This document shows positions 4,795 to 6,812 of a stretch of 6,972 bases of DNA, piece by piece. The position numbers and the translations under genes were made by a program. How positions within the stretch are numbered: position 1 is the stretch's first letter; each line of letters starts with the position of its first letter. The notes beneath the pieces are model-generated. The model was not told the origin of the DNA. It saw only the letters and a list, made by a program, of their open reading frames with translations, and searched no databases. Source of the stretch: Treponema sp. (GTDB lineage: Bacteria > Spirochaetota > Spirochaetia > Treponematales > Treponemataceae); contig JAAZCS010000259.1 of assembly GCA_012513125.1 (NCBI GenBank), positions 1-6,972 of the forward strand, read 5' to 3'.

Positions 4795-4917
4795 ATATAA
4801 CATTTGCTTAACCTGTATTTTCGCGCCCGAAGGGTTTGGCGCATTTTGTGCGTCAGGAGCGTAGCGACAGCACAAAATGTGACAAAGAAAATATCAGGTT
4901 GAAGCAGTTGTTCTACG
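4795..4917 (-). other. attC recombination site of the chemoreceptor cassette
   Basis: A long imperfect inverted repeat, read in cassette orientation on the minus strand. The left core CGTAGAAC is at 4917-4910 and the right core GTTATAT at 4801-4795 (consensus GTTRRRY with one mismatch). Arms pair as GCTT/AAGC, AACCTG/CAGGTT and TATTTTC/GAAAATA; the arm nearer the gene has two unpaired bases, G4901 and T4894 on the plus strand, matching the extrahelical bases IntI integrases use to recognise folded attC. The centre folds further: CATTTTGTGC/GCACAAAATG (4842-4851, 4870-4879) and GCGCC/GGCGC (4823-4827, 4838-4842). The length of about 120 bases is like Vibrio-type repeats. It starts 5 bases after the chemoreceptor stop codon, as is usual in compact cassettes, and its hairpin may also terminate transcription. 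Confidence 0.78.
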
Positions 4918-6812
4918 TTTTTTTATATTTTAAATTTATTTACTTCATTAATAAGTGAATCAATACTGACTTTATTTTCTAAACTAAGCTCATTTACTGC
5001 ATTAACTGCGACAGTCATTTGTTCTGCACCACTTGCCATTTCATTCATTCCTCCAGTTATTTCTTGTGTGATCATATTCATATTAACAGCTTCTTTTGAT
5101 ACCTGTTTACTACCGGTTAGCATTTCGATTGAACTCGCTTGAACTTTTTGTGTAATATCATTTAGAATTGAGATTGCTTCAAGTACTTGTTTACTTCCTT
5201 CATTTTGTTCTTCCATAGCCCTACGAATACCATCCTCCTGTTCAGTAACTATTTTAACTTCATTTTCAATCGTATTAAAATTTGTCGCAACATCTTCTGA
5301 GTATTTAATTATTTTTACTATAGAATCTTTAATTCTTTTTAATACTGTACCGATTGTCTTAGTCTGAGTACTTGAGGATTCAGCAAGTTTTCTAATTTCA
5401 TCAGCGACAACAGCAAATCCTCTACCTGAATCACCAGCGTGAGCAGCTTCAATTGCCGCATTCATCGAGAGTAAATTTGTTTGACTCGCAATATTTTGAA
5501 TTATTTGGCCTATTTCCATAAGACCATCGGATTCTTTCGCAACGTCTTTAATAGCAAGTGTAATTATATCTAACACTTTTCTACCTGCTTCAGAAGAAAA
5601 GGTCAGTTGTTTAATGTTTTCAGAATTTTTAACAAGAGTTGTTGTAACACTACCAATATTCGCCATCATTTCTTCAATCGCTGAAGAAGACTCAGTTACA
5701 TTGGCTGACTGGTCTAAGATAAGTTGGTTTAATTTATCTATGCCTTTGGATATCTGCTCCATAGTAGCACTTGTTTCGGTAACACTGGCAGATTGGCTTA
5801 ATGTCTGATTTTTTATACTCTGAATGTTCGCTGTTATCTCATTAATAGCAGTAGCAGTTTCCGTCATATTACTAGAGAGGTTTTCTCCAAGAATTAGTAA
5901 TGAATTTGACTGACTCCTAACATGAGCTACTAGATTACGGATTTTATCGAATGTTAAATTAAAGTACTTTGCCATGTCTGAAACTTCATCATGTGATTTA
6001 ACTTCAATTTTTCTGGTGAGATCGCCTTCCCCCTCGGAGATATCCTTAAGTATAGTTATTGTCTGTACAAGTGGTTTTGTGATGGACCGTGATATCAACA
6101 CTGATGAAATAATTGATAAAAAAAACAAAACTAAAAGTGCGATCGAAAGATTCTGAATAAAATCACTCATACCGTTTTTTATGATTACATCTATTTCTGA
6201 TATAGGAATACCTATAAATCTTATACCTATTACATTCTTTTGTTTATCTATAATTGCTTGGTAGCCGGTTAGGTAAGGTAAACCAAGAATGTTAGCTTTT
6301 CCTACGTATGTCTCACCTTGCATAACTTTTTGATAAGCAGCACTATCAGTACCAAGAAAAGTACCAACTGCACGTAAACCGTCTTTGTTTAAAATATTTG
6401 TGCTGATTCTGCGAAAATCATTACCTTCACGAACAAAAATTGTAGAGACTACATTAAGATCGTCTCTGATAGCATCAACCATTGTATAGTTCCCTTCAAT
6501 GGAATTTCCTTCTCGGTCGACTAAATGACTATCAATCAATTGAATTTCACCGTAATATCGACTTTCATAAACCTTAGTAGCTTGTAAGTCTCCCTGTAAT
6601 TTCAAACTTAGTGTTAAATTTGTTAAATCGGCTGTGAGTCTATTTGAGTTCACGTATGAGACTATCGAAATAATCGCACTGGTAAAAACTGTCAATAACA
6701 CAACTACAAGCATCAATTTTTTTCTTATCTTCACAATACTCTCCTTGAATATTTTGCTGTAAATATCTAAAGCTAATCCAAACTACTATTTGCGCGCGCA
6801 GCGTCCGTAGAA
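4801..6812 (-). mobile_element. Predicted integron gene cassette carrying a chemoreceptor gene
   Basis: The segment between the two crossover points is 2,012 bp, with one gene, a 78-base leader and a 3' attC site. Its ends carry a mark of cassettes: the sequence at the upstream junction on the minus strand, GTTCTACG (6813-6806), is the exact complement of the CGTAGAAC core that opens its own attC (4917-4910). In the excised circle these would form the perfectly matched core pair of one attC, whereas in the array each attC has mismatched cores, as seen here. The integrase gene is not in the window and would lie to the right if array polarity follows the gene direction. A 2-kb cassette with a large membrane receptor is unusually big; most cassettes are below 1 kb. 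Confidence 0.72.
4923..6734 (-). CDS. Methyl-accepting chemotaxis protein with periplasmic Cache-type sensor
   Basis: A 603-residue transmembrane receptor. Segment 1 (about 7-28) and segment 2 (about 195-217) flank a periplasmic sensor of some 165 residues that resembles the Cache_3-Cache_2 type (GNYTMVDAIRDDLNVVSTIF; YVGKANILGLPYLTGYQAI; NVIGIRFIGIPISEID). A HAMP linker follows (about 218-270, with DISEGEGDLTRKI), then a long coiled coil whose hairpin tip, IASQTNLLSMNAAIEAAHAG and GRGFAVVADEIRKL (415-450), binds CheA and CheW. Glu/Gln-rich helices SASVTETSATMEQ and SANVTESSSAIEEM are likely methylation regions. There is no C-terminal CheR-docking pentapeptide; the protein ends NEVNKFKI. The start is GTG at 6734, fixed by AAGGAG at 6746-6741 six bases upstream. 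No clear promoter is seen in the 78-base leader. It would steer motility toward or away from a small ligand, unknown here. It lies alone between two attC sites, not near other che genes. Confidence 0.96.
   Translation of the reverse strand: MKIRKKLMLVVVLLTVFTSAIISIVSYVNSNRLTADLTNLTLSLKLQGDLQATKVYESRYYGEIQLIDSHLVDREGNSIEGNYTMVDAIRDDLNVVSTIFVREGNDFRRISTNILNKDGLRAVGTFLGTDSAAYQKVMQGETYVGKANILGLPYLTGYQAIIDKQKNVIGIRFIGIPISEIDVIIKNGMSDFIQNLSIALLVLFFLSIISSVLISRSITKPLVQTITILKDISEGEGDLTRKIEVKSHDEVSDMAKYFNLTFDKIRNLVAHVRSQSNSLLILGENLSSNMTETATAINEITANIQSIKNQTLSQSASVTETSATMEQISKGIDKLNQLILDQSANVTESSSAIEEMMANIGSVTTTLVKNSENIKQLTFSSEAGRKVLDIITLAIKDVAKESDGLMEIGQIIQNIASQTNLLSMNAAIEAAHAGDSGRGFAVVADEIRKLAESSSTQTKTIGTVLKRIKDSIVKIIKYSEDVATNFNTIENEVKIVTEQEDGIRRAMEEQNEGSKQVLEAISILNDITQKVQASSIEMLTGSKQVSKEAVNMNMITQEITGGMNEMASGAEQMTVAVNAVNELSLENKVSIDSLINEVNKFKI

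Follow-up and report, generated by a model that had tools for sequence, protein, structure and literature searches.

The stretch of DNA analysed here, called the window throughout, comprises 6,972 nt and is one entire contig (C82) of a draft Treponema sp. genome of 2.27 Mb in 406 contigs, with a completeness of 80.6% and a contamination of 2.3%. To the right of position 4800 the window holds a single large gene, coding for a methyl-accepting chemotaxis protein (MCP) and lying between two attC-like sites. A first-pass annotation of the sequence had described this arrangement as an integron gene cassette, and its observations are confirmed: both sites, the matched 8-mers and the lone 603-residue open reading frame (ORF) were found where it had placed them. 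Read along the gene strand, the attC of a preceding cassette is followed by a leader, the receptor gene and the receptor's own attC (Table 1).

Table 1. Features of the window, with positions on the plus strand.
Feature	Position	Strand	Description
Probable integron gene cassette (leader, MCP gene, own attC)	4801..6812	minus	2,012 bp; matched ends, attC on both sides, array-wide rule
Own attC, long type	4794..4917	minus	124 nt; R'' CGTAGAAC, L'' TGCTTCAACCTG (one extra base), L' CAGGTTAAGCA, R' GTTATATG
attC of the preceding cassette, short type	6806..6873	minus	68 nt; R'' CGCCTAAC, R' GTTCTACG (5' junction of the MCP cassette)
Leader	6735..6812	minus	78 nt; Shine-Dalgarno-like AAGGAGAG ahead of GTG
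MCP gene	4923..6734	minus	603 residues, complete, GTG start; Pfam Cache_3-Cache_2, sCache_3_3, HAMP, MCPsignal
Cache sensor domain	6162..6506	minus	Residues 77-191; PF17201/PF17202
HAMP domain	5937..6098	minus	Residues 213-266; PF00672
MCP signalling domain	5154..5597	minus	Residues 380-527, tip QTNLLSMNAAIEAAHAG; PF00015, alignment with four host MCPs
HipB-HipA toxin-antitoxin-like pair and GNAT acetyltransferase	2853..4708	minus	Follows the MCP cassette on the same strand; Pfam

On the plus strand, GTTCTACG occupies 4910-4917 and CGTAGAAC, its complement, 6806-6813; on the gene strand, the core of the 5' junction, GTTCTACG (6813-6806), is exactly complementary (8/8) to the R'' box of the own attC, CGTAGAAC (4917-4910). 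The cassette therefore runs from 6812 down to 4801, that is, from the first T after the G of the 5' core (T6812) to the last G of the R' core (G4801), which reproduces exactly the interval proposed before. The matched ends that the first-pass annotation had singled out are the rule in this genome: of 32 units bounded by adjacent sites, 26 have ends complementary at 8/8 when a shift of up to 4 nt is permitted (25 of 31 if the site L025 3438, known only via its matched end, is omitted), versus 22 of 870 non-adjacent pairings in a control without sliding. A second cassette with the same non-consensus ends GTTCTACG/CGTAGAAC lies on another contig (L024, G000:C200, 243-1134) and carries a 208-residue class-I methyltransferase.

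The attC sites were called by a rule-based scanner, with five false positives per 1.04 Mb of resampled sequence, and by similarity, with no library attC model applied; an Rfam scan of the window gave no family at the gathering score. The scanner called 33 sites on the window contig and seven others, and seven more were added via similarity, a looser scan or matched ends, giving a total of 40, hence 38 besides the two of the MCP cassette. Their sizes are mixed, with short sites of 66-74 nt and long sites of 101-140 nt. Judged against 200 shuffles per site, the own attC is predicted to form a typical attC hairpin on both strands (z -7.16 and -6.26, with none of the 200 shuffles equally stable), and similar sites occur on other contigs of the genome, with 71-97% identity over the whole or part of their length (95-97% for two of them), and also in five relatives. 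The preceding attC has whole or partial matches at ten other places in the genome, nine of them on array contigs (75-100% identity, E-values from 3e-14 to 6e-5). Of the ORFs on the seven other array contigs, 46 of 46 with at least 100 residues and 61 of 66 with at least 60 residues point the same way, which is also the direction of the MCP gene. The opposite assignment, with the attC sites on the plus strand and the MCP antisense to its cassette, was rejected, since nearly all array ORFs would then be antisense and the extra base would fall in the arm opposite to that of known attC sites.

The first-pass annotation had named the lack of an integrase and of further attC sites in the genome as grounds for refuting its reading. 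An integron integrase gene, intI, was found on another contig (C392), scoring 368 bits with TIGR02249 against a cut-off of 265 that none of 14 control genomes exceeded, and it is present alongside the 38 further attC sites; attI was not seen, contig C392 stopping within intI. By alignment, this intI shares an insert and an HTFRH motif with the integrases of four relatives, which are integron and recombinase hallmarks. In a survey of 196 genomes of the genus, with up to four candidates scored per genome at an E-value of 1e-12, the own-attC type was found in six genomes, this one included, and the five relatives that share it all have an integrase above the cut-off. In one of them (G046), a matching attC is located 1.6 kb from intI and has the same direction; the integrase of this relative (G046:C13:161153-162101) is in two pieces, one of which is read through two stop codons, and because of this the array of that relative may be frozen. 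The integron is likely chromosomal and of the Treponema type, sharing its integrase family, mixed attC sizes and single gene direction with the chromosomal integrons of T. denticola and T. succinifaciens, where the attC sizes in T. succinifaciens are given as 63, 68 and 132 bp (Wu, Doak and Ye 2013, PMC3607928); in the 406-contig draft it is not linked to any chromosomal landmark. These features of the integron, together with the named relatives of the receptor, point to a Treponema-like spirochaete. In contrast to the cargo described in that text, the cassette in the window carries a complete transmembrane chemoreceptor.

The MCP has a sensor, a HAMP domain and a signalling domain with the conserved tip, with Pfam scores of 118 bits for Cache_3-Cache_2, 93 for sCache_3_3, 39.5 for HAMP and 106 for MCPsignal. 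An AlphaFold2 model of residues 30-189 has a mean predicted local distance difference test score of 93.7. The best solved matches of the sensor are formate-bound sensors, from the chemoreceptors of Oscillibacter ruminantium (PDB 8py0) and Asticcacaulis benevestitus (PDB 8py1), the sCache_3_3 domain expected of a formate receptor is present (formate-sensor literature: PMC12415202, PMC8698456), and R109, R121 and Y158, candidate formate contacts, are invariant and kept in both formate-bound relatives. These relatives are 31-34% identical, and formate as the ligand is an uncertain prediction; unlike them, the receptor described here rides on a unit of mobile type. That the sensor instead recognises another small carboxylate or an amide, or acts via a binding protein, is a serious alternative, to which we give somewhat less than even weight.

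The signalling half aligns without gaps past the middle of HAMP with four host MCPs, and the host genome has three CheW-domain matches. The earlier proposal that, with a standard tip, a newly inserted cassette could function at once is supported by these sequence data. In the window protein and its near-copies in databases (16 were compared), 6 of 156 Cache residues vary versus 30 of 335 in the signalling part, with 12 of these 30 falling in a single contiguous stretch (571-582), and the idea of a hypervariable sensor was therefore rejected. A foreign base composition was also rejected, the G+C content of the mcp gene (0.337) resembling that of the host (0.30-0.33 in seven contigs).

The two halves of the receptor have different relatives. 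In 200 genomes of the same genus, the sensor half has matches in four at an E-value of 1e-8, namely the genome itself and three others at 27-34% identity, and across the order in 46 of 390 genomes at 1e-15 (own included), 37 of them in one family (f5), at 43% identity at most. For the signalling half, 18 same-genus genomes each contain one MCP with 57-63% identity (L045-L062), and these 18 form one clade. Three database MCPs match this half at 74-77% identity and bear sensors of quite different types (P0020, dCache_1; P0025, dCache_3; P0057, dCache_2). In the tree, a supported set of 37 rows (99/98) comprises the window protein, its near-copies, the genus clade, one row from the order and 15 of 22 database proteins; therefore, one signalling chassis fitted with many sensors is a fair description. 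An ortholog in fixed synteny without the flanking repeats, named in advance as the counter-evidence, was not found: no sensor match exceeds 34% among the 200 same-genus genomes, and the genomes of the 18 MCPs with a similar signalling half lack a sensor match at 1e-8. Within 1.5 kb at most on each side of these 18 loci there is no convincing attC, the lone candidate, at threshold score (L053), being treated as chance; the chromosomal MCPs of family f5, which resemble the sensor half, likewise have no convincing attC in the flanks scanned. A contig scan of further genomes gave nine loci, none with attC, and no relative of the receptor was found on viral contigs.

Among the best 120 of 7,995 matches in a database protein search with the MCP, at least 16 proteins are 97-99% identical to it, and 12 of these come from sources whose longest contig spans 1,857-2,128 nt, as would be expected if assemblies break at the borders of the cassette. 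Two of the near-copies (P0017 and P0018, 401 residues, 99% identical) start near residue 203, without the sensor and first membrane helix, and are either products of an assembly break or sensorless variants.

Taken together, these data make it quite probable, in our view, that 4801-6812 is a canonical integron cassette with one complete MCP, in a genome whose integrase gene and many attC sites likely make up a chromosomal integron of the Treponema type, and that it is movable and adds a chemotactic specificity. The ORF with a downstream attC, the complementary core at the 5' junction and the gene in array orientation are all present. Cassettes in general, such as those of Vibrio superintegrons and the class 1 resistance cassettes, are alike in having an ORF followed by attC, matched cores, array orientation and a short leader, and the present one differs from them in its length of 2,012 bp and its 603-residue product. 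The anatomy of the cassette is supported by the data; its mobility is unproven, and we infer it. By the established mechanism, IntI cuts the folded bottom strand of attC between G and TT. As long as the cassette is inserted, the R boxes of its attC are poorly paired, whereas joining the cassette ends in silico gives full R-box pairing, with the predicted bottom-strand energy going from -30.9 to -37.2 kcal/mol. IntI would excise the cassette at this G/TT position on the folded bottom strand, releasing a 2-kb circle whose R boxes pair perfectly, and the circle would re-insert at attI or at another attC. The Cache domain would then bind its ligand, possibly formate, outside the inner membrane, the signalling half, which is of the same length class as those of four host receptors, would join the host CheA/CheW arrays, and a further chemotactic specificity would thereby come with the cassette in a single step.

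Several observations weigh against this reading, besides the uncertain ligand and the unseen attI. The MCP cassette was seen in a single array context, and none of the ten other MCP matches in the genome lies on an array contig; in the five integron-bearing relatives, ten stretches with 17 attC sites (score of at least 12) contain no MCP-like ORF. The intI ORF, of 359 residues, reaches the contig end before the place of the catalytic tyrosine. A consensus search found no sigma-70-like promoter in the leader on the gene strand, which leaves the expression of an MCP gene far from attI unexplained. The near-2-kb contigs of the near-copies could equally result from the attC repeats alone. Finally, the scanner found no attC in the 4.8 kb to the left of the cassette, and because of this the MCP cassette may be the last, long-settled one of the array.

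This last point leads to the alternative that the cassette is a fossil, the remnant of a single entry that has since become fixed at the array's far edge, immobile and with its ends still readable. The weak fold of the preceding attC in the inserted state (z -0.74 and -1.74, with 43 and 11 of 200 shuffles equally stable) and the broken intI of relative G046 would fit such a history, but the own attC is well preserved, nearly identical to two other sites, and the ends match at 8/8. In addition, no other close sensor copy occurs in the 200 sampled genomes of the genus, and the presence of the sensor is therefore patchy and not fixed genus-wide. We regard a fossil as rather unlikely. An ordinary chromosomal MCP lying by chance between attC-like palindromes is very improbable, for although genomes of the genus are rich in MCPs (20-81 first-look candidates per genome among those listed) and the composition is host-like, the ends match as in most other units, the gene has the array orientation in a genome with an integrase and many further attC sites, and a scan around seven of the ten other host MCP loci (L014-L020) revealed no attC.

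To the left of the cassette, the HipB-HipA-GNAT block may represent the following cassette, a long one, or chromosomal sequence that begins past the array edge. No closed cassette was found there, with neither an attC nor an exact copy of the core GTTATATG in 1-4790; two one-mismatch copies are presumed to be chance, and a weak attC candidate at 1750-1816 from a looser scan was lost in the stricter one. Where two genes converge, directly 3' of the GNAT gene, there is a perfect inverted repeat (2793-2829) with arms of 14 bp and a loop of 9 nt, probably a terminator rather than an attC. Further left (1277-2748), on the strand opposite to the array, a gene for a helix-turn-helix and ImmA/IrrE-type peptidase overlaps a small ORF that looks PIN-like, with no Pfam match, and the two resemble a toxin-antitoxin pair.

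Integron cassettes are known mainly for resistance genes, toxin-antitoxin genes and small genes of unknown function. The receptor cassette is a rare find, seen once here: among 32 delimited units it is the fourth longest, and no unit contains an ORF longer than its gene. From the 46 other-contig ORFs with 100 residues or more, 20 were searched against Pfam, which identified two C5 DNA methylases and a BpuJI-type restriction enzyme, an ArsP-type permease and a phosphodiesterase, while eight had no family. The methylases and the restriction enzyme form a restriction-modification set in one 3.5-kb cassette (L023 7064-10444); the largest delimited unit, of 4.5 kb, holds a FAD/NAD-binding oxidoreductase and membrane-protein-like ORFs (L023 1654-6272), and another cassette has two ORFs resembling, by eye, an IS3-type transposase pair (L027 4301-5610). 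In three cassettes (L027 5870-6715, L027 9975-10391 and L028 1573-2808), the ORFs run into attC and end in LTTAST, the attC arm therefore encoding a common C-terminus. No report of a chemoreceptor cassette was found in the open-licence literature, supplements aside, including the accessible portions of PMC3826837, PMC3091676, PMC12409362, PMC2386152, PMC3608642 and PMC3607928, and the words "chemotaxis" and "chemoreceptor" are absent from the available main text of PMC3607928.

The first-pass annotation had further suggested that such cassettes let a motile cell shuffle whole chemotactic specificities. This remains a hypothesis, and the empty search for further MCPs in the arrays, both of the host and of the five relatives, weighs against it. 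It seems unlikely to us that Treponema-type integrons trade whole senses, with a standard chassis and differing Cache sensors kept as cassettes and an attraction (here to formate) gained, parked or dropped via IntI.

For the single cassette described here, a whole chemical sense, predicted to be that of formate, would probably be acquired, lost or relocated as a single unit. A receptor as cargo is likely to surprise integron specialists. With a full transmembrane chemoreceptor linked to its own attC, behaviour, and not biochemistry alone, would become a movable trait. One cassette, one receptor and one predicted ligand form a concrete, testable unit. The cassette also bears on the origin of the patchy receptor repertoires of motile bacteria.
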